Virus record (IMG/VR): IMGVR_UViG_3300021440_000039
Span: 1 to 46,449 of that record
Strand: one strand, 5' to 3'
DNA length: 46,449 nt
Origin: a virus
Program-made: the position numbers and the translations under genes
Part shown: positions 5,575 to 46,449 of the stretch, piece after piece
Position numbering within the stretch: position 1 is the first letter of the stretch
How the letters are laid out: each line of letters begins with the position of its first letter
The notes under the pieces: model-generated
Seen by the model: the letters and a program-made list of their open reading frames with translations, nothing else
What the model was told of the DNA's origin: nothing
The model's database searches: none

Positions 5575-5967
5575 ATGCCCACCAAGAAGCCCATCATCCA
5601 ACGCTACGACCCGCAATGCGGCACTGATATCGTGGTAGCCGCCCGCACGGCGGTCCGCCTCGCCAAGCTGTGCAACACCATCTTCCGTTTCGAGTTTAAC
5701 GGGTTGGAGCTCCAAGCCTCCGCGATTAGCAAACCCGCCGACCTCGTCGACCAATACTACGAAGAACTCCGCAAGCGGGCGGAGGAGGAAGATCGAAAGT
5801 TCTGTCTCCCCCTGACCAAAGAGGAGCTGGTAATTCTCGAGCAGCTGACGAGACCAGAAGCCTACGGACTGGACATCCTCACACGGAGCGAACTCCGACA
5901 CTGCGCAGCCATCCACAAACGGATCAAAGAACTCGAAAACAGACTGTCCAAACCTACCAACACATGA
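5575..5967 (+). CDS. Hypothetical protein
   Basis: 130 aa behind an AACACCACC leader. A short N-terminal beta region (FRFEFNGLELQAS) is followed by a long charged helix (residues about 55-85, YYEELRKRAEEEDRK) and a C-terminal helix pair. It probably forms a coiled coil. ATGA overlap with the downstream gene suggests coupling. No family recognised. Confidence 0.6.
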   Translation: MPTKKPIIQRYDPQCGTDIVVAARTAVRLAKLCNTIFRFEFNGLELQASAISKPADLVDQYYEELRKRAEEEDRKFCLPLTKEELVILEQLTRPEAYGLDILTRSELRHCAAIHKRIKELENRLSKPTNT

Positions 5968-6235: not shown

Positions 6236-7183
6236 ATGAAGCGTACATCAAGGCCACGGGTGCAATCCCCGGCAAAGAAAGCAGCAAAGATGCTCAACAA
6301 GTGGGGACCGGAGCAAGCGATCCGTCTAGCCATGGTCATCGTGCGCTTTCCGCTAGAGACCAAAGAGGGGTGGTGGCGGCGGATGAACGAGCTCTACGGG
6401 ATCCACCGGCAGACGTGTTGCGAGTGGCAGAAGCGGGAGCCTCTATTCCGCGCCGCCCAAGAGATGGCCTTGGACTTGCTGAAGCGAAAGGAGGACGAGC
6501 GTCAACACTTCGGAGAGTTCGTGCTGACCCGCATGTCCGATGAAAACAAGGAGCTCTACGACCAGCTCGTCTTCTGGGAAGACAATCCTAACTCAGAAGG
6601 AGCGGAGAAAGCCCGCGGTCGGGTCCGCAACATGGCAGAGCAGGAACGGAGGCAGATGTTTGTGCAATGCATGGCCGCAAACGGCTTCGTCTACAGTCGG
6701 GCCTGCAAGCTGATGGGAGTGAGCGGGGACACCGTCCAAAACTGGTGCCGGGAGCGGGGCTTTCGGAAAATGGTTAACCAAGTCCAGCAGCTCAAGAAGG
6801 ATTTCTTCGAGCAGGCGCTGGTCGACGTTGTATCTGCCCGCGATACCCAAGCCATCATCTTTGCGAACAAGACCCTCAACCGGGATCGCGGATACGGGGA
6901 CAACATGAAAGTCCAGATGGAGGGGAAGGTGGACCACACCCACACTCACACCCTCATTCCACTCCAAGCGTTGGAAGCTCTGCCGACAGAGACCCTCGAG
7001 CTCGTCCTGCAAGCTGTGCAAGCGCACAAAGCCAAGCAAATCGCAGCCCAAGCAGCCGGGCCCAGCGTCCTTACCCCACCTGGGGGAGAAGGAGAGGTCT
7101 TAGAGCTGAATCCGCCCCAAGACGCCGACGAGGGACCGTGGCCCAACGGGGTCGGAAACGGGACCGGATGCGGACCCGCGTAG
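6236..7183 (+). CDS. terS: Probable terminase small subunit
   Basis: 315 aa. The small terminase recognises the phage packaging site and hands DNA to TerL. Two helix-turn-helix-like segments are visible: YGIHRQTCCEWQKRE (about residues 52-66) and FVYSRACKLMGVSGDTVQNW (about residues 152-171). A helical segment then carries A-L-V-D-V-V-S-A-R-D-T-Q-A-I-I-F-A-N-K-T-L and R-G-Y-G, a hallmark of many phage small terminases (AL..... gd..Aiif.lk....RGY). The Pro/Gly-rich C-terminus is probably the flexible TerL-contact tail. It is 5.4 kb from the large subunit, which is unusual. Followed by a strong terminator. Confidence 0.7.
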   Translation: MKRTSRPRVQSPAKKAAKMLNKWGPEQAIRLAMVIVRFPLETKEGWWRRMNELYGIHRQTCCEWQKREPLFRAAQEMALDLLKRKEDERQHFGEFVLTRMSDENKELYDQLVFWEDNPNSEGAEKARGRVRNMAEQERRQMFVQCMAANGFVYSRACKLMGVSGDTVQNWCRERGFRKMVNQVQQLKKDFFEQALVDVVSARDTQAIIFANKTLNRDRGYGDNMKVQMEGKVDHTHTHTLIPLQALEALPTETLELVLQAVQAHKAKQIAAQAAGPSVLTPPGGEGEVLELNPPQDADEGPWPNGVGNGTGCGPA

Positions 7184-7189
7184 ATGGAA

Positions 7190-7217
7190 AAGCCCCGGCC
7201 TTTTCGGACCGGGGCTT
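7190..7217. terminator. Bidirectional terminator between convergent genes
   Basis: AAGCCCCGG (7190-7198) pairs with CCGGGGCTT (7209-7217). It stands between the stop of the small terminase (+) and the stop of the 7237-7566 gene (-). On the minus strand the stem is followed by TTTTCC. Confidence 0.85.
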
Positions 7218-7236
7218 CGTTGTCTGCTGTGCAGTG

Positions 7237-7566
7237 CTAGTCCTTCCAACCCCGGGCGGTCCGGAGCGCCCGATAGGTGCTGGACGCTTCCTCGAGGTTC
7301 ATCTTGAGGGTGGCGAGGATGGCCCGGAACTCCTCCTGCGTTTCCGCTGTGCGGAGCAGGTGTGTCATCAGGCGCTCCGAGAGGCGTCGGGCATCTTCCC
7401 GATTGAGCATCTTCACGTCCTCAAACGTTTGGTTGAGCAGTCCGATGCGGACAGCATTGCGGTCGAGCTCCATGTCGGCGGGTCCGATCGGGGACACGGT
7501 AATGGCCCGGCAGTCGGGGCGTTTGTAGTCGGTCGGGCGGGTGTGGTGTGTGGATGCGTTTTGCAT
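7237..7566 (-). CDS. Hypothetical early-type protein
   Basis: 109 aa on the minus strand, start ATG at 7566. The N-terminal 25 residues are polar; the rest is helical and charged (NREDARRLSERLMTHLLR, EEFRAILATLKMNLEEA), probably a helical bundle. Like the two neighbouring genes it begins Met-Gln-Asn. A longer frame to 7872 would cross a terminator (7616-7642) and the next gene, and is rejected. A promoter with TTGACG and TATCGT lies just upstream. Function unknown. Confidence 0.65.
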   Translation of the reverse strand: MQNASTHHTRPTDYKRPDCRAITVSPIGPADMELDRNAVRIGLLNQTFEDVKMLNREDARRLSERLMTHLLRTAETQEEFRAILATLKMNLEEASSTYRALRTARGWKD

Positions 7567-7575
7567 GGTGCCGGG

Positions 7576-7604
7576 ACGATAGATCGGATAGTTCGAATCG
7601 TCAA
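7576..7604 (-). promoter_or_regulatory. Sigma70-like promoter of the 7237-7566 gene
   Basis: On the minus strand, TTGACG (7604-7599), a 17-nt spacer and TATCGT (7581-7576), ending ten bases before the ATG. The spacer contains CGAACTA three bases after TTGACG, the same element as in the divergent region at 7950-7965. Confidence 0.6.
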
Positions 7605-26271: not shown

Positions 26272-26892
26272 ATGGCACAGAAGTGGACACCTCCGCAATG
26301 TTGGGAAGGGCAGGACGTCTTTGTCGTCGGGGCAGGGCCGTCTTTGGCGAGTTTCGATCCGCAGCGTCTCCGCGGCAAGAACGTCATCGCCTGCAACCAC
26401 ACCGGATTCCAGCTTGGTGCTGAGATCGTCAAGATCTTGTTCTTCTCCGACCACTCTTTTTTCCTGTCCCAGCGTCCTCAGCTCGAGGCCTTCGGAGGGT
26501 GGATTGTCACCTCGAGCCCCAACCTGACGCGGTTGTCTTCCCCTGATTGGCTTCTCGGTGTGAACCGCAGGCATGATGGTTTGCATCGGGAAGCCGTCGG
26601 GTTCGGGGCCAATTCGGGATGCAGCGCCGTCAACCTCGCTCTCATCATGGGGGCGAAGCGGGTGTTCCTCGTCGGCATGGACTGCCGTGAGATCAACAAC
26701 CAAACCCACTGGGACGGACGGCATCACAACTCGAAAAACAACAAGGACGTCTATCGGGCGTTCTTGAACGGTTGGGAGGCGATCTCCTCCGCCCTTCCAA
26801 AAGTGTTTCCCGATCGGCAAATCATCAACGCCACCCCGGGCTCGGCCATCGAGTATTTCCCGAGGTGCTCCTACGAAGACGCGGGTCTCTAA
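26272..26892 (+). CDS. MptE-like/DUF115 Rossmann protein
   Basis: 206 aa. V-F-V-V-G-A-G-P-S-L (residues 16-25) is a glycine-rich Rossmann loop; later N-S-G-C-S-A-V-N-L-A-L and R-V-F-L-V-G-M-D-C match the MptE-like (6-hydroxymethylpterin pyrophosphokinase-like) DUF115 superfamily, also seen in flagellin glycosylation factors. In phages such genes occasionally sit among head genes with unknown role. It might bind a nucleotide or sugar. Leader AGAAGAACAT gives a weak ribosome-binding site. Confidence 0.7.
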   Translation: MAQKWTPPQCWEGQDVFVVGAGPSLASFDPQRLRGKNVIACNHTGFQLGAEIVKILFFSDHSFFLSQRPQLEAFGGWIVTSSPNLTRLSSPDWLLGVNRRHDGLHREAVGFGANSGCSAVNLALIMGAKRVFLVGMDCREINNQTHWDGRHHNSKNNKDVYRAFLNGWEAISSALPKVFPDRQIINATPGSAIEYFPRCSYEDAGL

Positions 26893-26897
26893 TCACC

Positions 26898-27341
26898 ATG
26901 TCTATTCGAACCACCGCTGATTTGTTGAAGGGGATCGTCGAGGTCGACTCCGACGAGTTTCCCGACACCGCCCTGGATCCGTTCATCCAAGCGGCAAACG
27001 TCCTCGTGGAGGAAGTCTGCGTTCCCTCCACTCCGGCCTATACCGAGGACCGTCTCACCATGATCGAGACATGGTTGGCCGGTCACTTCTTCGCTGTGCG
27101 AGCGAAGGTGATCGGGAGCGAAGGCGTGGCTGGTATTTCCACCGGCTACTCGTTCTCCGCAGGTATGTACCTTGCGAGCACTCCCCAGGGGCAGGCGGCT
27201 CTGTCCCTCGACACCAACGGCGGGTTGGCACGGAAGCAGGCCCAGATCGTCGCCGGGACCCTCGGTAGTAAAGCCACCGCCTCGTATCTCGGCGTCCCGT
27301 CCCCCCGGGCGAAGTCCTGCATCGGCATCACTGCCCTCTAA
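26898..27341 (+). CDS. Head-tail connector protein (adaptor)
   Basis: 147 aa. N-terminal helices D-F-P-D-T-A-L-D-P-F-I-Q-A-A-N-V-L-V-E-E-V (cut here) and L-T-M-I-E-T-W-L-A-G-H-F-F-A match gp6/gp15-like connector proteins (D..l..fI..A..lvdev......y......l..ie..LAaHf). The C-terminal Gly/Ser/Ala region with S-L-D-T-N-G-G is typical of the family's variable end. First of four neck genes in the usual order. Confidence 0.75.
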   Translation: MSIRTTADLLKGIVEVDSDEFPDTALDPFIQAANVLVEEVCVPSTPAYTEDRLTMIETWLAGHFFAVRAKVIGSEGVAGISTGYSFSAGMYLASTPQGQAALSLDTNGGLARKQAQIVAGTLGSKATASYLGVPSPRAKSCIGITAL

Positions 27342-27347
27342 TCCACC

Positions 27348-27689
27348 ATGAGCCTTGTCTCCAAAGTCTGCAAGCAGACCGCCATCCGGTGGCCTCTGCT
27401 GAGCAAGGACAGTTACGGACAGCCCGTGTTTGGGGCTCCGGAAGCTGTGCTCGTGCGCTGGGAAGATACGGCGGAGGAGCAGATTGCGGCCGACGGGGTC
27501 AAGTTCGTCACTCGCTCCAAAGCCCTCGCGCTCGTGGACATGCGCGCGGGAGACTACCTCCAACTCGCCGCTCTCGAGGACACTACCAACACAGACCCGC
27601 GCATGGTGTCGGACGCCTACGTGGTTCGAAGCTTCGCCAAGATCCCAAACAAGCGGGGAAAGCCCCTTGTCCGTTGGGCCTATATGTGA
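27348..27689 (+). CDS. Head-tail stopper/minor capsid protein
   Basis: 113 aa, seven bases after the connector. The beta-rich pattern T-A-I-R-W-P, G-Q-P-V-F-G...V-L-V-R-W-E-D then R-S-K-A-L-A-L-V-D and D-P-R-M-V-S-D-A-Y-V-V-R-S-F-A-K-I-P fits small head-tail closure proteins that sit between adaptor and tail. Call rests on position and fold-like pattern. Confidence 0.6.
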   Translation: MSLVSKVCKQTAIRWPLLSKDSYGQPVFGAPEAVLVRWEDTAEEQIAADGVKFVTRSKALALVDMRAGDYLQLAALEDTTNTDPRMVSDAYVVRSFAKIPNKRGKPLVRWAYM

Positions 27690-33748: not shown

Positions 33749-34198
33749 ATGACGACCACCGCACAGCACTGGGCTCTCCCCTACTTGGGGCGTCCTTGGA
33801 TTTCCGGGGCGAGAGGGCCAGACTCTTTCGACTGCTGGGGGTTCCTCCGTTGGATCTATCGGGAGCGGTACAACCTCGAGATCCCGTCCTTTGTCGGAGT
33901 AGATGCTGAGGATCACTTGGCCGTGCGCAGACTCATGCTAGACGGAGAGCGTTCCGCGCGTGATTCATGGCCCGACTGGGTACAGACATCGGACCCCGTA
34001 GAAGGCTGCGCCGTGGCTCTCGGACGCTTTGAGTATTTGTTCCACGTCGGTATCTACATTGAACTCCCAGAGGGTGGTCGAGTTCTACATTGCAAGAAAC
34101 CTATCGGGGTCCTACATCAGTCCTTGGCCCAACTGCGATCCGAAGGACTCAGCCGCTTCGTCTTCTACCGCCATGCCTCACACTGCGCACATCGTTGA
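33749..34198 (+). CDS. NlpC/P60-type tail peptidase (gpK-like)
   Basis: 149 aa. Catalytic Cys in D-S-F-D-C-W-G-F-L-R-W and His in Y-L-F-H-V-G-I-Y-I, as in NlpC/P60 cysteine peptidases at tail tips, which cut peptidoglycan during DNA entry. The start ATG 33749 is five bases after the upstream stop. Its end overlaps the gpJ-like gene by 26 nt in another frame. Confidence 0.85.
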   Translation: MTTTAQHWALPYLGRPWISGARGPDSFDCWGFLRWIYRERYNLEIPSFVGVDAEDHLAVRRLMLDGERSARDSWPDWVQTSDPVEGCAVALGRFEYLFHVGIYIELPEGGRVLHCKKPIGVLHQSLAQLRSEGLSRFVFYRHASHCAHR

Positions 34199-37100
34199 GT
34201 GTCTCAATCCGTTCAAACCGTTTAGTGATCCGAAGAAACACCAGGTCCCGGCCGGCACGGTTTTGCGGGATTGGCTGAAGACTCGGTTCCCCGGTTTTGT
34301 AGAGTTCGAACGGCCCACCATTTGTGTTTACAATGGTGATTACCTTCTCCGCAAGGACTGGGACCGAGTCCTGCAGGACGGGGACATCGTAGGTTTCGTC
34401 GCCCAGCCCGGAGGTCCGCTTCTCCCTTATGTGTGGTACGCTTTGATCTCGATTGTGATCGGGGTGGGCATTGCTCTGCTGATGCCGAAGCCCGGAATGC
34501 AGACGAATGATTCCGATACCATCTACACGATTCGGGGTCAGCAGAACCGCGTCCGTTTGGGCGAACCCGTTGAAGTTCCCTATGGTCGGTGTCGTCTCTA
34601 TCCGTCCTACGGAGCCCTACCCTACAACCGTTTCGAGGGGAATGATCAATATCAGTATTCGCTCTTCTGCTTGGGCCAAGGCGAGTACGATATCGACGAG
34701 ATCCAAATCGAAGACACCCCTATTGGAAATTTCCAAGACGTCACTTACGTTGTCTATGGTCCCAATCAGCCGGTTACTCTTTTTGACGACAATGTGGTCA
34801 CCTCTGTGGAGGTTTCCGATATTGAGCTTTTTGGTACGAACGAGACAGAGTACGTTCAATGGGTTGGTCCGTTTGTGGTGAACGAGTCCGGAACCACCAT
34901 CACTCGGATTGAGCTGGATTTCTCGATGCCACTCGGTCTCAATCACATCACCGACAAGGGCAAGGTTCGTACAGGAGAAATGGCTGTCTCGGTCGAATTT
35001 CGATCCATAGATAACTCGGGGACTCCTACGAGCGATTGGGCTTCTCTTTACACCCGAGCCTGGAGCATGGCTACCACGAAGGCTCAGCGCTCTACTGCGT
35101 CAGTCATCGTGCCTTCTGGTCGCTATCAGGTGCGGGTTAGTCGTACCAGCGCCAAGGATGAGGACAACGGTTCTGCCCAGATGCTGCTCTGGTCGGCATT
35201 GCGCGGGTATAAACCTTCCGTGCGCGACTACGGAGACAAAACGATGTTGGCCGTAAAGATGAAGGCCACCAACAACCTGAACGACCGTTCGGCGTTCCGA
35301 GTAAACGTGTGGGCCACCAGAAAACTCCCTATTTGGGATGCTTCCACCGGGTGGTCGGCACCGCAGGCCACTCGCAGCATCGTTTGGGCGTTTTGCGATG
35401 TCATCCGATCCTTGTACGGCGGCAACTTGGACTCCACATATCTCCCACTCACAGAGCTCCAAGAACAGGATGCTATCTACACAGCACAGGGACGGTATTT
35501 CGACTATATCTTCGACACTCGCATCACAGTGTGGGAAGCCTTGAGGCTCATTGCTCGTATTGGTAGGGCCGTACCAATGATCGAGGGCAGTCAGATCAAA
35601 CTCATTCGAGATACCGTAAAGACTCTCCCCGAGTGTCTGTTCAACCAGAACAACATCGTCAAAGACTCCTTTTCCTGGAATACGATGCTTCCGAAAGATG
35701 GAGACTATGATGGGGTTCTCGTGCGCTATACCGACCCCAACGATTTCCTCCCCCGTGAGATCAAATGCCTGCTGGGCGACGACGGTACCGCGATTGCGGC
35801 TCCTCGAGGAAGTGAACACCCCGACGATGACATCGGTGACAATCTTGAGCCTCTCGACCTCTTGGGCTGCACTGATCCTGACTGGGCTTTTCGAGAGGGA
35901 ATGTACCATCGGCGCTGTGTTGTTTCCCGTCGGCAGTCAGCCAAATGGAAGACCGGATTGGAAGGACACATTCCGAGATTCGGTACCATGGTGGGTGTTT
36001 CGCACGACGGACCCCGTTGGGGCTCTGGCGGTACCGTTGTTTTAGTAGCTGAGGACAATCGAACCCTCACCTTGTCGGAGCCTGCCGTTTTCAGCACAGG
36101 AGCACACTGCATTGCCATTCGGACCCGCAATGGACTAAACACAGGTCCACTGGTGTGCACAGCTGGGGAGGATGAGTTCCATGTAGTGCTCGCGGCCGAT
36201 CTTCCGGAAGACGTTCTACTCTCCGACGAGACTGAGAATCCGGTGTACCTGTTTGGGAAGTCGACACTGGGCGGCAGCACCGGATGGACCAAGAACTTGA
36301 TTGTGAGTCGTATCACTCCAGACTCCGACAATACGGTGGCCCTCGAAGCTGTCCTCTATGACGCCTCCGTTTTCACGGATGACGGGGCTTTCGCACCGGA
36401 GATCCCCGACCACGATACCAATCCAACCCCTCCGGATATTCCCACTCTCGATTGCTCCTCGGTTCAAGTTGCCTGGTTGCCGGGGAGCAATACAGAGGGG
36501 ATCGTTTCGTGGGCTCCGGCCTACGGGGCTCGGCGGTACGAGCTCCAGAAGTCGGTGGATTCCGGAACCTCTTGGTCAGATCTGGCCTCCACCGAATCAA
36601 CCTCGGTGGTGATCCCCATGAATGAGGGAGTGTTCTTGCTCCGGATTAGAGCCTTAGGTATTGGCGCCGGTACTTGGTGTGTCTCCGAGCGCGACTTCAC
36701 AGAACCAGCAGATCCGTGGACGACTGATAGCATACCTGTGGGGGGTGATTTCTCGGATCTGGACAACGGCTTAGCCTTGGAACCGTTGACCCCATCAATA
36801 GAGTACAGGACCCGCAGTGGGCAAGCAGGGCTGCTCGGGTACTCCGTTTATGACGGTATGCTTAACGGATCTCCCACGAACCACGCCACGACTCCTCCAA
36901 CTCTGTATCGTAAGCGCACGCTTGGTGGTGGGTTGAACTGGTATATCAACGACGGAATGGGTGGGGTATCCAGTGGGCAGAGCCGGGCAGGTGGCGTTGT
37001 TGGCTGGGAAGCAGACGGCACCCCTTTATCCGGGGGGATGGTGGACGGGGAGCCGGCTGACCATGTTGTCTCGGGCAACTATGGTTGGGCGCAAGACTAC

Positions 37101-37658
37101 GCCACGGCGTCGTTTGCGCATTCGTCTGGTCTTTCTGCATTCTTCGCCTTTACTAAGACAGCAGGGCTGCCCTCGGGCAACTCAATGTTGTACGATTCCG
37201 GCTACTACGTCCCGGTTGGCACAATGGAGTGGACATCGAATTGGGGGACACCCGCGCACATCACCGCTACGGGAATGCTCACAGAAAGTCTGTCGGAGCC
37301 GGACACCACCGATGCCGCTGTCGCCCGGTTTCTCACCAACGTAGGGTGGTTGGAGTGGTCGACTACCCCAGCGGCGTCATGGCAGGAAGTGCGGGCTGGC
37401 AGCGCCGTCGAGTTCGATGTCGTCTGTGTAGAACATCGTGCCACTGCGATAAATGCGGTTCCTGACTACCTATATGAGGTGACCGACACATATGAGACAT
37501 GCCCCGATGGCTCCTCCACATGGACGGAGGAGGCCCCGATTGTTCGTTACATCCAATCGAACTCATCCGGTGTTTTGGAGGTTCCGGCAGTGCAGATCGA
37601 GCTAACTGAGGGAGTTTCTCGCCGGCTCAAGAGCACAACCATTGTCCCCCTTATCTAA
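34173..37658 (+). CDS. gpJ-like tail tip/host specificity protein with fused N-terminal gpI-like part
   Basis: 1161 aa. Residues 1-80 form a small ubiquitin-like domain (ICVYNGDYLLR...LQDGDIVGFVAQPGG) followed by a membrane-like helix LLPYVWYALISIVIGVGIAL (83-102); this resembles gpI of lambda fused to gpJ. After 110 come the baseplate-hub domains (G-Q-Q-N-R-V-R-L-G-E-P-V-E-V-P-Y-G-R, in pieces), a fibronectin type III-like domain (about 750-850) and a long beta-rich end. The protein closes the tail and binds the receptor or fibres. Start chosen at 34173 because an earlier one lies inside the peptidase gene. Confidence 0.85.
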   Translation: MPHTAHIVECLNPFKPFSDPKKHQVPAGTVLRDWLKTRFPGFVEFERPTICVYNGDYLLRKDWDRVLQDGDIVGFVAQPGGPLLPYVWYALISIVIGVGIALLMPKPGMQTNDSDTIYTIRGQQNRVRLGEPVEVPYGRCRLYPSYGALPYNRFEGNDQYQYSLFCLGQGEYDIDEIQIEDTPIGNFQDVTYVVYGPNQPVTLFDDNVVTSVEVSDIELFGTNETEYVQWVGPFVVNESGTTITRIELDFSMPLGLNHITDKGKVRTGEMAVSVEFRSIDNSGTPTSDWASLYTRAWSMATTKAQRSTASVIVPSGRYQVRVSRTSAKDEDNGSAQMLLWSALRGYKPSVRDYGDKTMLAVKMKATNNLNDRSAFRVNVWATRKLPIWDASTGWSAPQATRSIVWAFCDVIRSLYGGNLDSTYLPLTELQEQDAIYTAQGRYFDYIFDTRITVWEALRLIARIGRAVPMIEGSQIKLIRDTVKTLPECLFNQNNIVKDSFSWNTMLPKDGDYDGVLVRYTDPNDFLPREIKCLLGDDGTAIAAPRGSEHPDDDIGDNLEPLDLLGCTDPDWAFREGMYHRRCVVSRRQSAKWKTGLEGHIPRFGTMVGVSHDGPRWGSGGTVVLVAEDNRTLTLSEPAVFSTGAHCIAIRTRNGLNTGPLVCTAGEDEFHVVLAADLPEDVLLSDETENPVYLFGKSTLGGSTGWTKNLIVSRITPDSDNTVALEAVLYDASVFTDDGAFAPEIPDHDTNPTPPDIPTLDCSSVQVAWLPGSNTEGIVSWAPAYGARRYELQKSVDSGTSWSDLASTESTSVVIPMNEGVFLLRIRALGIGAGTWCVSERDFTEPADPWTTDSIPVGGDFSDLDNGLALEPLTPSIEYRTRSGQAGLLGYSVYDGMLNGSPTNHATTPPTLYRKRTLGGGLNWYINDGMGGVSSGQSRAGGVVGWEADGTPLSGGMVDGEPADHVVSGNYGWAQDYATASFAHSSGLSAFFAFTKTAGLPSGNSMLYDSGYYVPVGTMEWTSNWGTPAHITATGMLTESLSEPDTTDAAVARFLTNVGWLEWSTTPAASWQEVRAGSAVEFDVVCVEHRATAINAVPDYLYEVTDTYETCPDGSSTWTEEAPIVRYIQSNSSGVLEVPAVQIELTEGVSRRLKSTTIVPLI

Positions 37659-37659
37659 C

Positions 37660-38946
37660 ATGGCAGCCCCTATCCAACGCGCGTTCCCGCTTACTGTTCG
37701 CCAGGTACAATACCTGTGGCAGCTCGTTCACGGAACCGGAAATCCTGAGACCAACACGAAAGCAACAGCAATCCTACCTCAGGAGATTATCACTACATGG
37801 GACACCTTGCGGGTGTTTCGATCGAATATGCACATGGGCGGTTGGGCGTGGCATGGGGAGGTTGCAACAGAAGCAGCAATGCTGGCGCTCTGGTCCACTT
37901 CTTCTCGGTCGTGCTGGCCGAATGATAAATGTATTCGCACGGACCTCGGGTGTCTGATGACCTGCACATCTGGCAATGGAAAGGCTGCCAATGATTGGGT
38001 CTCCGTCCCTCTACTCTCCAAGTACCAATCGGCCATAGATTCTCTGGTCTCTTTGAGTGATTCCCTCGGCACCTCTTTGTCCGATTTGGCTGAGGTTGTA
38101 AGTGGGAAGTGGAATACTCCGGACAATGCTGAAGACTTGGAGAAGATCGGGCATGACGGAGACGGTAAGCCCACTTGGAATGGGGTCGCTTGGCCCTCCG
38201 ATGGCGGTGCATTTGAACTCAACTCGGATACGTTAATTGAGTCCTCTGCACCAAACGCTTGGTTCAAATACGACTCCGGGGTGGAAGAAGCCGATGGCGA
38301 CCCGGCCGAGATTAACGACACGGTCAAAAACTGGATAGACCAGAGTGGTAACGGTAATCACTTCACGCAAGACACAGTTGGATACCGACCCACTCTTACT
38401 GCAGATGGTGTTGTATTTGACGGGACGGATGATCACCTGTGGTGCACAGGATTTCCGAGTATAGACCTTGCAAATTGCACAGCGATTTGGGTCGCATCCT
38501 CCACATCCAATTCTGGGTATAGGCGCCTTTTGGCTATAGGTGCGAGTGGGGTCGGCACAAGTGACTACAATTCTGCGAACGCCCTTGTTATTTCCGCTGG
38601 CCCCCCAGGAGGCTGTTGGGATGTTGAGGGAGGCACTGGTGCCGAGTTCCAAACACTGCTCTCAGATGGCGCCCCCGCGCCCATGCGGGTGTATTCCATG
38701 CGCATCTGCAATCGAGTGGGGATCATTGGACACTCTGACCTCGTCTCCGGCACAGGTGATACCTCCACATCTCTCACGACATCCCGCACGGCGATGGTTC
38801 TCGGAGCCCATTGGTTGAACGGATCGTTGAATCTCAACTACTGCCACACCGGTACGATCAAGGAGCTGGTGCTTTGGCCTAGGGCTCTTGGTAACGTGGA
38901 AATGGGCATGATCGTTGCTGCGCTGCGGACCAAACACGGTGTTTGA
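37660..38946 (+). CDS. Tail fibre/receptor-binding protein with LamG-like (concanavalin) domain
   Basis: 428 aa, starting two bases after the gpJ-like stop. The region 215-428 is a LamG/jelly-roll domain: W-I-D-Q-S-G-N-G-N-H-F-T-Q-D, R-P-T-L-T-A-D-G-V-V-F-D-G-T-D-D-H-L, and W-L-N-G-S-L-N-L-N-Y-C-H-T-G-T-I-K-E-L-V-L-W-P-R (cited in pieces), features of carbohydrate-binding adhesins. The N-terminal 200 residues are probably the virion-attachment and trimer part. By position and domain this is a candidate receptor-binding protein. Confidence 0.75.
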   Translation: MAAPIQRAFPLTVRQVQYLWQLVHGTGNPETNTKATAILPQEIITTWDTLRVFRSNMHMGGWAWHGEVATEAAMLALWSTSSRSCWPNDKCIRTDLGCLMTCTSGNGKAANDWVSVPLLSKYQSAIDSLVSLSDSLGTSLSDLAEVVSGKWNTPDNAEDLEKIGHDGDGKPTWNGVAWPSDGGAFELNSDTLIESSAPNAWFKYDSGVEEADGDPAEINDTVKNWIDQSGNGNHFTQDTVGYRPTLTADGVVFDGTDDHLWCTGFPSIDLANCTAIWVASSTSNSGYRRLLAIGASGVGTSDYNSANALVISAGPPGGCWDVEGGTGAEFQTLLSDGAPAPMRVYSMRICNRVGIIGHSDLVSGTGDTSTSLTTSRTAMVLGAHWLNGSLNLNYCHTGTIKELVLWPRALGNVEMGMIVAALRTKHGV

Positions 38947-38985: not shown

Positions 38986-39270
38986 ATGCAACTCAACCAC
39001 GAACAGCTGGTGTCTTTTGCGGCAGTGTTCGGGCCGATTATCACGGCCCTTCTGTCGGGATACCTTACTTGGAGGTTCAAATCTTCCGCTGAAGGCAGGC
39101 GGGGATTTCAAGCACTCATCGACGCGAATGATAAATTCCGCGATGCGATGTTCCGGGAGGTCGAGCGCAAAGAGCAAGTCATCCGAACACTCTCCAAGGA
39201 AAACAACACTCTCCGCAAGGAGAATGAGCGACTTCGCCACAACACCGATACCCACAGTCCAAACCAATGA
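38986..39270 (+). CDS. Single-span membrane coiled-coil protein (holin/spanin candidate)
   Basis: 94 aa. Membrane segment L-V-S-F-A-A-V-F-G-P-I-I-T-A-L-L-S-G-Y-L (about 8-27, in pieces), then a long charged coiled coil (VERKEQVIRTLSKENN..., 55-85). An N-terminal anchor plus coiled coil is the layout of inner-membrane spanins, and of some class III holins. No Rz1-like lipoprotein gene was found nested within it. Its ATGA overlap with the receiver gene suggests the two act together. Confidence 0.6.
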   Translation: MQLNHEQLVSFAAVFGPIITALLSGYLTWRFKSSAEGRRGFQALIDANDKFRDAMFREVERKEQVIRTLSKENNTLRKENERLRHNTDTHSPNQ

Positions 39271-39644
39271 ACAAGCCCTCCGTTCTCATCGTTGAAGATG
39301 AACCCGAGATTGCCGAGATCTTCGCCAAAGTAGTCCTGTCTATCGATTGCTCCTACATTCGAGCCTCTCGCATCAAGGAGGCCGAACTCGCCCTGCGGCA
39401 TATCGCTTTCACGATCGTTATCTGTGACCTGATCCTCCCCGACGGTGTCGGCATCAGCATCGCAGAGAAGGCCATCAAGAGGGGGTGTGGTCTGGTGATC
39501 GTGACGGGGTTTGCTGACAAGTATGCTGCCGACCTCACCCGACTCTCCGAAATAGACCCGAGAGTCCAAATCCTCCACAAGCCTTTCCCAGTTCAGACTC
39601 TCGAGAAGACGCTCATCGGTCTGCTGGAACCTCTTTCCCGGTAG
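39267..39644 (+). CDS. Stand-alone response-regulator receiver domain (CheY-like)
   Basis: 125 aa, almost the exact length of one REC domain. All key residues are in place: acidic pair E10-D11 (V-L-I-V-E-D-E), phosphorylatable D54 (V-I-C-D-L-I-L-P-D-G), T80 (V-I-V-T-G-F) and K105 (L-H-K-P-F). It should accept phosphate from a histidine kinase and change partner binding. No output or kinase domain follows. It ends the rightward tail/lysis operon; how the signal is used is unknown. Overlaps the membrane coiled-coil gene by ATGA. Confidence 0.85.
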   Translation: MNKPSVLIVEDEPEIAEIFAKVVLSIDCSYIRASRIKEAELALRHIAFTIVICDLILPDGVGISIAEKAIKRGCGLVIVTGFADKYAADLTRLSEIDPRVQILHKPFPVQTLEKTLIGLLEPLSR

Positions 39645-39669
39645 GCGTGCCGGGAGTGTGTGTGGGGTT

Positions 39670-39725
39670 AGATAGAAAGGGCCGGAGAGGTTTCGTAGCG
39701 GTTTCCTCTCCGGCCCGATCTATCT
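39670..39725. terminator. Strong bidirectional terminator
   Basis: GGGCCGGAGAGG (39679-39690) pairs with CCTCTCCGGCCC (39705-39716); an outer AGATAGA/TCTATCT pair (39670-39676, 39719-39725) extends the stem. It separates the plus-strand tail/lysis operon from the minus-strand operon ending at 39733. Confidence 0.9.
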
Positions 39726-39732
39726 GTACCGA

Positions 39733-40533
39733 CTAGGGAATTATCCTGCGAACCTGCGGGAGCAGGAGATTCCGTTTGTCGGAGGCGTGCTTGATTCCAG
39801 CGTCGTAGTTTCCCCACTTGTGGGCGACGTTGTTGGCCGAATAGGCGGCACGGATCGCATCGTAACGGGCCGCAATGCGGGAGAGCGGTCCCAGATGTTT
39901 GCAGTGCAGCAACCAAACCTCAGGCACTGTGCGGGGAGTGCGATGATCCACGTTGATTCTGTCCCCTTTGGAGAGCACGAAAGCCCCTCCGTGTGCTCCC
40001 GGGGCAAAGGACACAGCTTTCACCCCAGAGGGGCGGAAAAGCACAGGCTTTCCGTACCAACGTGAGTCGGGCGCCGCATACTTCACCTCATCGTAGATCT
40101 GCCCAGGGCCGGTGGGGAAGACATCGCTCATCATTTCCCAACCCGTCGGTGCTACGACACTCACCCCCAGCTGCCACAACGTGGATAGGATTTGGGGCCC
40201 TGTTGGGAAGTAGATGAGCTCGTCGCAATCGACAACAATCACCCAGTCCGCCGAGGTGCCCAACCAGCACACACTCTTGAGCCTCGAGTTCTCGGCGTCA
40301 TCCAACTGCTGACCCTTTTCCCAATCGATGACGTTGATCCGATCGTAGTGGGGCCACTCTTTGGAGGGTCCTTTGTTGTGCTCGGCTTGGAACCATTGAA
40401 GGATCTGCCGAGATTTGTCGGTGCTGCGGCCCTCGTAGACGAAGATGTGGCGGGCGAAGGTGAGGTAGTGTCGCAACGTGTAGGGAAGGATCTCCTCCTC
40501 GTTCCGACACAGGATGTAGACATCTACGTTCAT
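39733..40533 (-). CDS. Glycosyltransferase, GT-A fold (GT2/GT92-like)
   Basis: 266 aa. M-N-V-D-V-Y-I-L-C-R-N-E-E opens the nucleotide-sugar-binding domain, and V-I-V-V-D-C-D-E-L-I-Y-F-P has the metal-binding Asp-x-Asp (D102, D104). The sequence R-H-I-F-V-Y-E-G-R-S-T-D-K-S (diagnostic E-x-x-S-T-D strand) fits glycosyltransferases that act on peptides, polysaccharides or modified bases. Target in a phage: DNA bases, virion proteins or host surface. It is the last gene of the minus-strand operon, one base after its neighbour. Confidence 0.7.
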   Translation of the reverse strand: MNVDVYILCRNEEEILPYTLRHYLTFARHIFVYEGRSTDKSRQILQWFQAEHNKGPSKEWPHYDRINVIDWEKGQQLDDAENSRLKSVCWLGTSADWVIVVDCDELIYFPTGPQILSTLWQLGVSVVAPTGWEMMSDVFPTGPGQIYDEVKYAAPDSRWYGKPVLFRPSGVKAVSFAPGAHGGAFVLSKGDRINVDHRTPRTVPEVWLLHCKHLGPLSRIAARYDAIRAAYSANNVAHKWGNYDAGIKHASDKRNLLLPQVRRIIP

Positions 40534-40534
40534 G

Positions 40535-41887
40535 TCACCGTTTCTCCAGAACGATTTGGTAGCCGCGGTTCAGGACCTTGATGTGGTCCGCATAGCAGGA
40601 GAGGAAAGCGTCGATTGCGATCTTCGGCCGATCGACCTCTCGGGGCATGTCCAGCCAGCGGTAGTCATCAAAGATGATGATGCCGCCGTGCTTCACAGCA
40701 CGGAAACCTATCACGGCGTCGCGCAGAACGTTCATGGCGTCGTGGGCGCCGTCGATGTAGAGGAAGTCGAGGGACTCCTTCAAGTCCTGGTCCCAGTCGA
40801 GCATCTCGGCCGAAGTCATCCGATGGATGGAACACCGGTCCCCGTACGGCGCCAGCTTCTCCCGGCAGATCTTCTCATTGGAGGAACAGTCGATCGCACG
40901 CCGAACGTGTTCGGCCGAACCGGTGAACGGATCCACGCAGATGTAATGGGAGAGCGGGGCAGTGAAGATCCAGTCGAGCATCCACTTGGCGGAGTCGCCT
41001 TGGAAGGATCCGATTTCCATTCCTAAGGCCCCCTCCTTGTCCCGAAGGTGCCACAGGTGCTGGACCCAAACAGGCCCGTGCCCGTGTGCGCGGGCGGCCG
41101 TCGTTCGCAGGTCCACCTCGGGGATGATCGTGGTCGACGGCTTGAGGTAGTAGGAGCGATAGATCTCCACGTCCTCCGAAGGAATCAAGGTCCCCAGCTT
41201 CTCGAGGTTGGTGTCCTCGATGCTGTTCTTGGGAGGGCTCTCCTTGTGCCCGACACCGTAGCCTTTTCGGCCGGGCATTCCTTTGATCCCAATCACCAAC
41301 GGATGGTTGTCTCCGCGAAGGCTGAGGATCGTCTTCGACCCGAGAAGCCGAGCCCAGAGGGCCACATCGAAGAAGGGGTTCTGCTGTTCTCGAAGGATCT
41401 CTTGGATCGTCTGCAAGGCGCTGAGGTGGACCGCGGTCTGACAGAGGCTCGCGTGCCGAATGTTGGAGTGTCGTAGCCACCACCGGTGCTTGATGTTGAA
41501 GTAGTAGGCATAGGGCTCGCCGTAGGCCGTCAGTGTCGCGTTCGCCTTCTCGGAGGTCTCGAACAAGGACATCACCCTATCAATATACTCGGGATCGTAC
41601 CAGTCGTCGTCCTCAATGAAAAAGACGACATCGCCGATGATCTGTTGGTAGCTCTCCAAGAAAAGCCACCGGAGTTTGGCGATCATGGAGGAGACACCGC
41701 GCCACTTCGGATTGGAAATCCGGGTCTGCCCCACGGCGTGGGAGTAGGGGGTGATCGCCAGAGGATGTTCCCCGTCATCCAACACGAACCACTGATCGGG
41801 TTTTCGTGTCTGGCGGGCCATGTATTTTTCGCAGAGGGAAAAGGCCTCTGGTCTGTCTCCTGTGCAGGTTACGATTGTGACTTTCAT
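40535..41887 (-). CDS. Glycosyltransferase-methyltransferase fusion
   Basis: 450 aa. Residues 1-225: GT-A glycosyltransferase (V-T-I-V-T-C-T-G-D-R-P, W-F-V-L-D-D-G, and F-I-E-D-D-D-W-Y-D-P with the metal-binding acidic run at 92-96). Residues about 265-450: class I SAM methyltransferase (motif I E-I-G-S-F-Q-G-D-S, 291-299; D-F-L-Y-I-D-G-A-H-D, 374-383; G-G-I-I-I-F-D-D-Y, 401-409), Methyltransf_24-like. The two activities in one chain suggest sequential sugar addition and methylation. ATGA overlap with rad50C-like gene. Substrate unknown. Confidence 0.8.
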   Translation of the reverse strand: MKVTIVTCTGDRPEAFSLCEKYMARQTRKPDQWFVLDDGEHPLAITPYSHAVGQTRISNPKWRGVSSMIAKLRWLFLESYQQIIGDVVFFIEDDDWYDPEYIDRVMSLFETSEKANATLTAYGEPYAYYFNIKHRWWLRHSNIRHASLCQTAVHLSALQTIQEILREQQNPFFDVALWARLLGSKTILSLRGDNHPLVIGIKGMPGRKGYGVGHKESPPKNSIEDTNLEKLGTLIPSEDVEIYRSYYLKPSTTIIPEVDLRTTAARAHGHGPVWVQHLWHLRDKEGALGMEIGSFQGDSAKWMLDWIFTAPLSHYICVDPFTGSAEHVRRAIDCSSNEKICREKLAPYGDRCSIHRMTSAEMLDWDQDLKESLDFLYIDGAHDAMNVLRDAVIGFRAVKHGGIIIFDDYRWLDMPREVDRPKIAIDAFLSCYADHIKVLNRGYQIVLEKR

Positions 41888-42453
41888 TCGATGGTATGGA
41901 CTGTGCCTATTTGGAGTTCTGTGATATGGGTAACGAGAATGATTTGGACTCCGAGTTCCTCGGAGAGTTGGAGCAGGAGCTCACGGATACGGGGTCGGTA
42001 CTTGGTACTGATGAAGCGGAAGGGCTCGTCCAATACTATCAAGCGGCGGGGTCTCGGCGAGGCCATCAAAAGACAGGCGAGGCGGAGAGCAAACGAAGTC
42101 ACATCGATCACACCACCCCCAGCTGCGGTCATCGGATCGATCTCCTCCCCGTTGCGGACAAAGACCAAGCGGGCTTCTGTCTTCCCGCGCTTCTGCTCGA
42201 AGAGGATGCGGAACTCGTAGGGATCCTCAAACACAGCACACAAGCAACGGGTGACCACGGACGATATCTGCGAGTGGGCTTCCTGCTGCATCTTCTGAGC
42301 GATCCCCAGCACGATGCCCCTAACCTCGTCCCACGCTGCGAGCTCTTCCTTTGCTTCGGACCAGCTTTGTTTCTCAGCCCGCAGCATCTTGCGGGTAGAG
42401 CGCAAATCCCCAGCGATGCGCTCTCCAATGCGTCGAAGTTCAGCGGTGCTCAT
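41884..42453 (-). CDS. Rad50/SbcC C-terminal half (ABC-type ATPase lobe)
   Basis: 189 aa from ATG at 42453 (an earlier start at 42522 lies inside the upstream gene). Signature-like motif A-A-G-G-G-V-I-D-V-T-S-F-A-L-R (110-124), Walker B R-R-L-I-V-L-D-E-P-F (136-145), and H-loop V-T-H-I (174-177) give the C-terminal ATPase half of Rad50/SbcC. The signature lacks the usual L-S-G-G start. It should pair with the N-terminal half encoded at 43616-44503 to form one ATP site. Overlaps the coiled-coil gene by 14 nt and the fusion gene by ATGA. Confidence 0.8.
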   Translation of the reverse strand: MSTAELRRIGERIAGDLRSTRKMLRAEKQSWSEAKEELAAWDEVRGIVLGIAQKMQQEAHSQISSVVTRCLCAVFEDPYEFRILFEQKRGKTEARLVFVRNGEEIDPMTAAGGGVIDVTSFALRLACLLMASPRPRRLIVLDEPFRFISTKYRPRIRELLLQLSEELGVQIILVTHITELQIGTVHTIE

Positions 42454-42691
42454 CGAGGAACGTTCCCCACTTCTTTTGGAACTTGGAGAGTGCTGTCTCG
42501 AGCTCTTGCTCCTGTTTGACAATCTGCTCCCGATGTTGCTCTAACAGGGAGCGGGCCGACGATATAGAGTGGCACCCGAACTCTCGGACCAGCTGGGCCT
42601 CGAGCTGCTTGACGGCGCCGACCGCTTGATCTTTCTGTCGTTTAGCTTCGGCGACCGTACGCTCGAGCCTCTGATACTTCTCAAGATTCAT
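42440..42691 (-). CDS. Coiled-coil protein, possible Rad50 arm fragment
   Basis: 83 aa, wholly helical and charged (RLERTVAEAKRQKDQAVGAVK, REQIVKQEQELETALSKFQ), so a coiled coil. One Cys (FGCHS) is near the centre but without CxxC. Between the Mre11 gene (overlap 11 nt) and the C-terminal ATPase half (overlap 14 nt), it could supply the returning arm of the split Rad50, or be an independent adaptor. Confidence 0.6.
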   Translation of the reverse strand: MNLEKYQRLERTVAEAKRQKDQAVGAVKQLEAQLVREFGCHSISSARSLLEQHREQIVKQEQELETALSKFQKKWGTFLDEHR

Positions 42692-43646
42692 CTTTGGTGA
42701 GTTGGTGGAGGAGTTTAGAGGCGGCGGCAGACAACTTGTGGGTCTCCCGATAGATTCTCAATGCCTCGACGAAATCGAAGGAGTGTTTGTTGGTGGGTCT
42801 CAGATTCTCTACAAACTCGGAGACGCTCAGAAGCTCCTTCGTCGTAGGCCACTTCTCTTTAGACTCTGCCACGCCGATATCTTTAGACACGTCCAAAAGT
42901 AGGCTTTCGATGGAGCCGTCTTGATGAATGAGTCCTACTCTGGGTTGATGTAGATACTCATCCGACTTCCTGCGGAAAAAGCTGCCGCAGTTGATCACCT
43001 GACACCCTGTTTGGGTCTGGGCGTTGAAGGGCTTGTGATTGTCTCCGAACACAGCGACATCAAACCCTTTGAGCACCTGTCCGAAGCAGGAGAGCTCACT
43101 CATCGGAGCCGCCTCAGGGTGTTTGGCTTCCTTGAACCAGCAGTAGGCGTGGACCACCGCGATTTCCAAACAACCGCTGTCCTTCCTCGGTGGGTTTTGT
43201 GTCTTCGGTGCGGCAATGGTCCCCCAGGGGTACCCGTGGAGACGGAGAGGACGACAGCCCGGCGGACCCGCTACTACTCGGGGAGATCCTTGCTCGAGGT
43301 TCTCGATCTTCCCTGCCCGCATCAAGACCCCGTAGGCTGTGCGGTGGATTCCCTCGAGGCTGTGGTAGGGGAGGTCGTGCTGACCCGGTACGGCATACAC
43401 CCGAGGCATATACTCGAGGGCCAAACTGATTCCCTCGGCCGGAGTGTTCCAGCGGTCGAAGATGTCGCCCGCACAGATGATCGGGGCTGAATGCTCAAAG
43501 CTGATTTGCTTCAGTTGGTCAAACTGACGCTTGAGCACCTCAGCCCACGAAGGTTCTCCGCTGCGAGCAATCGGGGAATCGGCAGTGATGTGGAGATCCG
43601 ATACGGCGATCGCCACTACGGGATTTTCTGATGACAGATCGGACAT
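42681..43646 (-). CDS. Mre11/SbcD-like metallophosphoesterase nuclease
   Basis: 321 aa. Metal-binding motifs: V-S-D-L-H-I (D17, H19), C-A-G-D-I-F-D-R-W (D61, D64), P-G-Q-H-D (88-91; Asn of the usual GNHD is Gln), A-V-V-H-A-Y, and V-F-G-D-N-H-K-P. These fit the calcineurin-like nuclease of Mre11/SbcD, which cuts DNA ends together with Rad50/SbcC. The C-terminal helical part may be the Rad50-binding region. Its start overlaps the Rad50 N-half gene by 31 nt. Confidence 0.85.
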   Translation of the reverse strand: MSDLSSENPVVAIAVSDLHITADSPIARSGEPSWAEVLKRQFDQLKQISFEHSAPIICAGDIFDRWNTPAEGISLALEYMPRVYAVPGQHDLPYHSLEGIHRTAYGVLMRAGKIENLEQGSPRVVAGPPGCRPLRLHGYPWGTIAAPKTQNPPRKDSGCLEIAVVHAYCWFKEAKHPEAAPMSELSCFGQVLKGFDVAVFGDNHKPFNAQTQTGCQVINCGSFFRRKSDEYLHQPRVGLIHQDGSIESLLLDVSKDIGVAESKEKWPTTKELLSVSEFVENLRPTNKHSFDFVEALRIYRETHKLSAAASKLLHQLTKDES

Positions 43647-44503
43647 ATTTGTCCTCGGGTTTGTTGGTGGAAGGCTTCTTCGGCTTGTTGGAATGTGTGG
43701 GCGCGGGCCCTTGCTTCAATATCAGCGGACTCGGCCAATTGGATGAGACCCTTGAGCCGTTTTGTCCTGGTGACAAGCGTCGAGAGTTTCTCGAGACTGA
43801 TCGTCAATTCCGTTGTGTCGGGAATGGCAATCTCCGAGGCAGCATAGAGCGGAGCGGCCTCCTCGATCCAAGCACAGAGCCCTGCCTCCTTCTTCCGAAG
43901 CTTCACCAATCGGGACTCCTGCTTCTCGAGCTCCTCGAGCTCCTGCAGGAACTCCTCCACCGGACGCATCGCAATCACCTCGGCCTTGATTTTGCGGTAG
44001 CTCTCCCGGTGGATTTCCACTGCGGCTTCGGCTTTTGCCCTCCCCGTTCGGATCTGCTTTTGGATGTCGTCGATCTTGGAGAGGTTGACGAGGTCGTTCA
44101 GCCGGCTCGCCAACTCGCCCGGGGACAGAGTGAACCAGAACGGAGGATCATGCTGGAGTTGGAAATTCAGGTCCGTCACGCGAAGGACCTTGCGGACCGG
44201 GGAGGGGACTTCGGCACCGAATGCCTTGAGCTCTACCCCGTCGAGTTCGTAGCTGTTTCTAGCCCCACGAAGGCGGGTGATTTTGCGATCCCCAGCAACA
44301 AGCCCCACCCGACACTTCTTTTGCCCGTGACGCACGAAGTCGGCACCATTGGGTTTGTTGCGGCACACCCATCGGAGAGCTCGCAGGACCGCAGACTTTC
44401 CCGAGTCGGTATCTCCTATGATGGTTGTGACCTTGGGATCCAGCGGCAGGACTAGCTTTCGATGACGTTGGAAGTTTCGCAGGACTAGGCGCTTCAGTGG
44501 CAT
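43616..44503 (-). CDS. Rad50/SbcC N-terminal half ending at the zinc hook
   Basis: 295 aa. Walker A I-G-D-T-D-S-G-K-S-A (29-38), Q-loop-like L-Q-H-D-P-P-F-W (about 115-122), a long coiled coil (145-260) and, at the very C-terminus, C-P-I-C (C287, C290), the zinc hook that joins two Rad50 arms. The protein ends five residues later, so the arm does not fold back; the other half is encoded separately. First gene of the minus operon, preceded by GATAATAG (44517-44510) six bases before its ATG. Confidence 0.85.
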   Translation of the reverse strand: MPLKRLVLRNFQRHRKLVLPLDPKVTTIIGDTDSGKSAVLRALRWVCRNKPNGADFVRHGQKKCRVGLVAGDRKITRLRGARNSYELDGVELKAFGAEVPSPVRKVLRVTDLNFQLQHDPPFWFTLSPGELASRLNDLVNLSKIDDIQKQIRTGRAKAEAAVEIHRESYRKIKAEVIAMRPVEEFLQELEELEKQESRLVKLRKKEAGLCAWIEEAAPLYAASEIAIPDTTELTISLEKLSTLVTRTKRLKGLIQLAESADIEARARAHTFQQAEEAFHQQTRGQICPICHQKIP

Positions 44504-45920: not shown

Positions 45921-46449
45921 ATGCCTAACACACTCCACCTGTCTCTGGAGGATGACGCCATCGTCACCTCATTCCAAGATACCGAGAAATTGATCTTCAA
46001 GATCTGTCACAGCATGTCGGCGAAGTACCACATTCCGTTTGAGGATGTCGTGGCACAAGCCCGATTGATCTTCATGAAGGAATATCGGAACTTCGATCCC
46101 ACCAAGGCCCGATTTACCACCCATCTATATCGAGGCCTGGTGTGGCAGCTCACCGATTGGCTTCAGAAGGAATACTTCCACCGCAGCCACCTCGAGATCA
46201 ACGAGGAGGTTGTGGGAGCGGAGGATCATCCGCGTTGCGCGACACACGATATCGAAATGAGGGTTTCGGAGGAGGCCCGGATCGTTATCAGCTTGGTGGT
46301 ATCGACTCCGGAACACCTCCACACCCTGCTCCGTTGGAATCGGGCCGACGGCAGGAAGAAGATTCTCGGCACCATCCGCGAGTACCTCCGCGATGAGCTC
46401 GGTTGGTCCAACCAGATCATCTCGCAATCGTTCCAAGAGCTCCGCGGTG
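45921..46449 (+). CDS. Sigma-70 family region 2-like protein, 3' end missing
   Basis: 176 aa seen; the frame runs off the window. Around residues 35-75: Y-H-I-P-F-E-D-V-V-A-Q-A-R-L-I-F, E-Y-R-N-F-D-P-T-K-A-R-F-T-T-H-L-Y-R-G and L-T-D-W-L-Q-K-E-Y (in pieces), matching sigma70 region 2 (eDl.Qea.l.l......Fdp.rg.F.t.a......i...lr). A C-terminal W-S-N-Q-I-I-S-Q-S-F-Q-E-L may be the start of region 4 or a related helix-turn-helix. It could direct host polymerase to phage promoters. Starts at ATG 45921 behind a palindrome. Confidence 0.65.
   Translation, partial: MPNTLHLSLEDDAIVTSFQDTEKLIFKICHSMSAKYHIPFEDVVAQARLIFMKEYRNFDPTKARFTTHLYRGLVWQLTDWLQKEYFHRSHLEINEEVVGAEDHPRCATHDIEMRVSEEARIVISLVVSTPEHLHTLLRWNRADGRKKILGTIREYLRDELGWSNQIISQSFQELRG

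Follow-up and report, generated by a model that had tools for sequence, protein, structure and literature searches.

Phages read the state of their hosts through quorum signals and DNA damage, and we know of no demonstrated case of a two-component receiver driving a late membrane step of a phage. In the phage DNA analysed here, a gene for a stand-alone receiver overlaps the gene for a small membrane protein, which raises the question of whether the two proteins work together and, if so, what they control. The stretch that we analysed as a whole (the window) is a 46,449-base IMG/VR virus contig with a G+C content of 58.7%. It belongs to a siphovirus-like phage and has genes for a terminase, a portal, a major head protein, a tape measure and a J-type tail tip. 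An open reading frame extends past its right end, and longer records are frequent among its relatives; it may therefore be incomplete.

Receiver and membrane genes overlap where the late operon ends

Following the genes for J and a fibre-like protein, we observed the membrane gene, the receiver gene, a hairpin and then convergent genes, in that order (Table 1), in agreement with the preliminary description of this DNA, which had reported a 94-aa and a 125-aa open reading frame joined by an ATGA overlap at the end of the tail operon. The 96-nt stretch containing the hairpin (39645-39740) folds at -46.9 kcal/mol (z -4.85), with no shuffled sequence doing as well, and because the hairpin separates the receiver from the convergent genes, we take the receiver to be the last gene of the late operon.

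Table 1 Features of the window.
Feature	Position	Strand	Remarks
Lipoprotein-like protein gene, 107 aa	14145-14468	+	late region; signal peptidase S26 match (PF10502, E 3e-10)
J-type tail tip gene	34029-37658	+	context, upstream of the pair
Fibre-like gene	37642-38946	+	context, directly upstream of the pair
Membrane protein gene, 94 aa	38986-39270	+	predicted span at about residues 8-30; charged helix 37-89, predicted cytoplasmic
ATGA stop-start overlap	39267-39270	+	couples both genes; receiver start not preceded by a Shine-Dalgarno-like motif
Stand-alone receiver gene, 125 aa (PF00072)	39267-39644	+	E10, D11, D54, T80 and K105 intact
Long hairpin	39669-39726		boundary of late operon and convergent genes; probable transcription terminator; strand not assigned
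Glycosyltransferase gene and glycosyltransferase-plus-methyltransferase gene	39733-41887	-	in the J-to-SbcC slot
Split SbcC and metallophosphatase genes	41884-44503	-	convergent side; SbcCD-like nuclease set; marker for syntenic relatives
SbcC, C part	41884-42522	-
SbcC, middle part	42440-42691	-
Metallophosphatase	42681-43646	-	among the split SbcC reading frames
SbcC, N part	43616-44503	-

The interval between the J and SbcC genes is a variable slot that holds many cargo genes, and glycosyltransferase-like genes are found there in related phages as well. The SbcCD-like set recurs in many phage contigs; when bacterial and archaeal genomes were scanned with an alignment of the SbcC fragment, a single match was obtained (L168, QMSR01000001.1), titled as a Thermoplasmata archaeon MAG. 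Its length (36312) is the same as that of phage record L108, and it is likely a phage contig binned into an archaeal MAG. Many genes of the window are preceded by an A/C-rich leader (ACACC, AACAC or ACCAC) just before the ATG, which we observed at 16 of 39 genes, compared to 7% of random positions (examples are the starts at 5575, 6236, 8076, 8736, 9349, 9615 and 32839), and Shine-Dalgarno-like motifs precede 11 of the 39 starts.

The receiver keeps its key residues and has no output domain

The assignment of the 125-aa protein as a receiver rests on several agreeing lines of evidence. It passes the Pfam cut-off for PF00072 narrowly (32.8 versus 30.2 bits, E 8e-8), its best match among solved structures is the receiver 4q7e (E 9e-8), and an AlphaFold2 model built from an input alignment of nine phage sequences (pLDDT 95.4) shows strands and helices alternating in the (beta-alpha)5 order of receivers. 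Foldseek matches of this model are themselves receivers, namely ArcA (1xhf, E 3e-8, TM 0.83), KdpE and CheY-like proteins. Alignment confirmed the previously reported residues D11, D54, T80 and K105, with E10 completing the acidic pair.

The protein ends at residue 125 and is filled by the receiver fold, leaving no C-terminal output domain, and it is thus not a DNA-binding response regulator. No HATPase (PF02518) was detected in the window record, possibly a partial one, which accordingly does not hold a complete two-component system. Since its residues are intact and the window contains no histidine kinase, it is possible, judging from sequence, that host two-component signalling feeds this receiver.

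Neither protein has close relatives in the collections searched: at E<=1e-3, the receiver found none in IMG/VR (single-protein scan) or in GenBank phages (tblastn), and the membrane protein found none in IMG/VR (single-protein scan), while raising the limit to 10 in the scans with both proteins returned weak matches only. A candidate from Roseobacter phage CRP-3, a small protein that phmmer matched at E 1.6e-4 within a small set, was dropped as it adjoins terminase genes. A receiver-motif scan of IMG/VR yielded five loci whose matches resemble host sequence or fortuitous reading frames (one example being a kinase-regulator pair) rather than phage modules.

A receiver that stands alone and lacks a DNA-binding domain can work through protein contact. 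The window receiver might in this way act on late transcription, like stand-alone or RssB-type regulators, with the membrane gene a mere upstream neighbour, and there is a sigma-factor-like gene at window position 45921. However, the receiver is made late, together with the tail genes, and no transcription genes accompany it in the relatives described below, so that we give this explanation a very slim chance.

The partner is predicted to be a single-span membrane protein

The 94-aa protein has one hydrophobic segment followed by a charged helix (model mean pLDDT 73.5; Table 1). Lysine and arginine residues flanking the span number zero on the N-terminal side and three on the C-terminal side, and the long helix is therefore predicted to be cytoplasmic. 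Hydrophobic residues occupy 47% of the heptad a and d positions compared to 18% elsewhere, a pattern reached by 87 of 1000 shuffles, making a coiled coil plausible; the earlier description of a membrane coiled-coil protein thus holds for the single predicted span, with the coiled coil itself only suggestive. No holin, XhlA, spanin or other curated family was matched at cut-off in Pfam, PHROGs or NCBIfam.

Lone receivers of related phages abut small membrane genes

Relatives were collected through four markers: J, the SbcC C-terminal fragment, the major head protein and the portal. Receivers exceeded the cut-off in 10 of 76 SbcC-selected records and in none of the 74 selected by head protein, where one fell below it, and none was found in 50 J-selected records; these counts are not rates, as record lengths vary greatly and many records are fragments. 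A profile built from phage receivers additionally revealed degenerate receivers in L251 and L269/L270 and one receiver in the portal-selected L275, giving nine lone-receiver lineages including the window (Table 2).

Table 2 Arrangement of lone receivers and their membrane partners.
Lineage	Arrangement
Window	94-aa membrane gene, ATGA, receiver
L089-L092	91-aa membrane gene, ATGA, Asp-less receiver; position with respect to the convergent SbcCD-like module as in the window
L189	192-aa membrane helix, ATGA, 128-aa receiver
L190	180-aa membrane helix, TGATG, two tandem receivers
L187	100-aa helix with C-terminal span, 2-nt gap, receiver
L186	receiver, ATGA, 96-aa helix with C-terminal span
L251	N-terminal-span helix, 8-nt overlap, Asp-less receiver
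L269	N-terminal-span helix, 4-nt overlap, Asp-less receiver
L275	receiver, directly followed by 112-aa weakly hydrophobic N-terminal-span helix

In all nine lineages, the receiver gene lies directly against (-8 to +2 nt) the gene of a small protein predicted to have a single span. The long hydrophilic side of this protein is rich in lysine and arginine and is predicted to lie on the cytoplasmic side. The pairs occupy five kinds of site: the end of the tail operon (window, L089), two places within the tail genes (L189, L186), a position after portal or head genes (L187, L190) and a position between head-tail connector genes (L251, L269, L275). Gene order is reversed in L186 and L275, with the genes still abutting. 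With five kinds of site and two reversals, the pairing does not stem from one inherited gene order, and the coupling of receiver and membrane gene noted previously for the window is borne out across the lineages. In L190, the tandem receivers (6837-7579, + strand) are coupled to each other as well as to the membrane-helix gene and follow the portal gene.

The two genes of each pair could nonetheless be separate accessory genes without functional link that meet in insertion hot spots, as the interval from J to SbcC varies and is rich in cargo genes, and small hydrophobic genes are common, making up 20% of the genes in these loci. Against this, no lone receiver lacks an abutting gene of this type, whichever of the five kinds of site or of the two gene orders is considered. 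Among soluble-type genes of the same loci, 8.3% have such a membrane neighbour under a strict hydropathy cut and 26% under a lenient one, compared to seven of nine and nine of nine receivers, respectively (the partners in L187 and L251 pass the lenient cut only). The corresponding binomial P-values of 9e-7 and 6e-6 are guides only, because some lineages share a site or perhaps ancestry and the partners were picked by eye before scoring. We therefore regard a chance meeting of unlinked genes as unlikely, though it keeps an appreciable share of our belief; the receiver and the membrane protein probably work together. A common family for the membrane partners, tried by alignment and with phrog_3671, was unsupported, as they share 16-21% identity with the window partner and are not alignable as one family.

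In three of the nine lineages (L089, L251 and L269), the phospho-accepting aspartate is replaced by His or Gly, and yet the pair is kept. These pseudo-receivers bear on a further explanation, in which the membrane-tethered receiver is a phosphoryl sink or decoy, draining phosphate from host histidine kinases and blunting the host response to infection. Such a role would suit the window receiver, with its intact residues, no output domain and no phage kinase, and tethering would place it close to kinases in the membrane; a sink would, however, be unworkable in the three lineages without the aspartate. We have downgraded the sink on account of the pseudo-receivers and consider it rather improbable, and the earlier suggestion that the phage protein diverts a host phosphorelay conflicts with the same lineages.

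Some relatives carry hybrid kinases

Two further phages, L157 and L188, encode receiver-kinase hybrids (receiver-HATPase) inside their tail operons, both without a sensor domain: a 496-aa receiver-kinase-receiver protein in L157 (16630-18120, - strand) and a 367-aa receiver-HisKA-HATPase protein in L188 (8382-9485, - strand). Some relatives therefore bring their own kinase, while eight lone-receiver records tested for a HATPase yielded none. The L188 hybrid gene shares an ATGA coupling with the gene of a small protein of weak hydrophobicity; no clear membrane gene precedes the hybrid gene of L157, which we count against the reading as a module. The tail regions of both phages also encode pseudopilin-like proteins (L157 9564-9935, - strand, N_methyl PF07963; L188 5304-5672, - strand) adjoining proteins with Tat-signal-like starts, a possible clue to the host.

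By phmmer, the window receiver is closer to the bacterial receiver 4q7e, a comparator chosen as its best PDB match, than to most phage receivers, and related receivers were found in the pairs L186/L187, L157/L188 and L251/L269. As the receivers are not one tight family and that of the window lies nearer to a bacterial one, repeated recruitment is suggested; on these sequence comparisons, repeated recruitment or very old divergence would fit better than one recent spread.

The membrane protein may be the core of the module

At the connector site, which is flanked by the homologues of window 26772-27341 and 27348-27689, a small membrane helix is encoded without a receiver in about 30 phages and together with a receiver in three; a few of the receiver-less phages hold additional genes there. 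The single-span genes at this site (L199, L202, L206, L207, L233, L254, L264 and others) are varied and apparently unrelated in sequence. Since the membrane gene occurs without a receiver in so many phages, we suggest that the core of the module is the membrane protein, providing the basic function, and that the receiver is a regulator added to it.

A link of the pair to lysis is a plausible hypothesis with indirect hints in its favour. No endolysin was recognised in the window, where part of the small reading frames was scanned, except the NlpC/P60 tail-tip gene, and no membrane partner reaches a curated holin cut-off. The neighbours at the connector site are connector genes and not a lysis cassette; all three observations speak against lysis. 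On the other side, one receiver-less connector-site gene (in G195) resembles XhlA (PF10779; E 1e-7, below cut-off), a membrane protein of the PBSX lysis operon that is needed together with XhlB and XlyA (PMC5589764). L186 encodes a 143-aa protein with a weak phage holin match (E 0.009) two genes past the receiver, and small lipoprotein-like genes lie near the module in L186, L187, L188, L189, L251 and L275, as in envelope or lysis gene sets. The XhlA-like gene, the weak holin match and the lipoprotein-like genes are hints that point to lysis or the envelope.

The lipoprotein-like genes near several modules, along with a late-made membrane protein in a variable slot, would also fit a pair that blocks later phages (superinfection exclusion) or guards the envelope by sensing damage. 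No match to known anti-phage defence proteins was obtained with PADLOC profiles (E<=0.01), however, and late expression with no integrase evidence makes exclusion less useful, leaving such a role very unlikely.

Discussion

We propose a membrane-signalling module of two translationally coupled genes, in which the receiver regulates its partner by direct contact, in a phosphorylation-dependent manner in the window; this reading is tentative, although it may well prove right. According to this model, the membrane protein would be the effector or anchor, with its long helix facing the cytoplasm, and the receiver would bind that helix. Host histidine kinases or small phosphodonors would phosphorylate D54, altering binding and thereby changing the state of the membrane protein, and some relatives would use their own receiver-kinase hybrid in place of host input. 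Pseudo-receivers lacking the aspartate should be constitutive binders. As the receiver has no DNA-binding or enzymatic output, the membrane partner is the candidate for its output, and given its production along with the tail genes, the pair would most likely control a late membrane event, for example lysis timing. The fold, the residues, the overlap and the recurrence of the pair are established, and the membrane span and topology are predicted; that the two proteins bind directly, that the receiver is phosphorylated in the cell and that lysis is involved are inferred.

The window receiver shares with stand-alone receivers of the CheY, Spo0F and CpdR type (PF00072) the fold, acidic pair, phospho-accepting aspartate, threonine and lysine, and the lack of an output domain; it differs in that a phage tail operon encodes it, in a record without a kinase gene, in its coupling to a membrane gene and in its narrow margin over the Pfam cut-off. 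A structure search of virus proteins in BFVD returned the same fold in a 'CheY-like receiver' (A0A6J5RMP2), a TtrR-like protein (A0A6J7WWP8), 'Response regulator' entries of uncultured tailed phages and a hybrid kinase of Alteromonas phage PT11-V22, with at most about 21% identity to the window receiver and, comparing by annotation alone, no pairing with a membrane gene. Like XhlA (PF10779), the partner is a small late phage membrane protein, but its span is N-terminal, it has no XhlA match and no holin or endolysin gene is its neighbour. With Rz-type inner-membrane spanins it shares an N-terminal span followed by a long helix, which is here predicted to be cytoplasmic rather than periplasmic, and the window has no adjacent outer-membrane lipoprotein.

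Phage-encoded receivers have been annotated before, and the recurrence of receiver and membrane gene pairs is new here; narrow literature searches found no paper describing such a module. A broader scheme is also conceivable, though unlikely to hold in every part, in which a host or phage phosphorelay acts on a stand-alone receiver that gates a small membrane protein timing a late event such as lysis, the receivers having been recruited repeatedly and some being by now phosphorylation-independent pseudo-receiver switches.

The recurrent coupled pair is a concrete, testable candidate and tells what to seek in other phages. Through it, host signalling could perhaps tune a late event at the membrane, for example lysis; if so, host envelope or metabolic sensing would be linked directly to late phage decisions.
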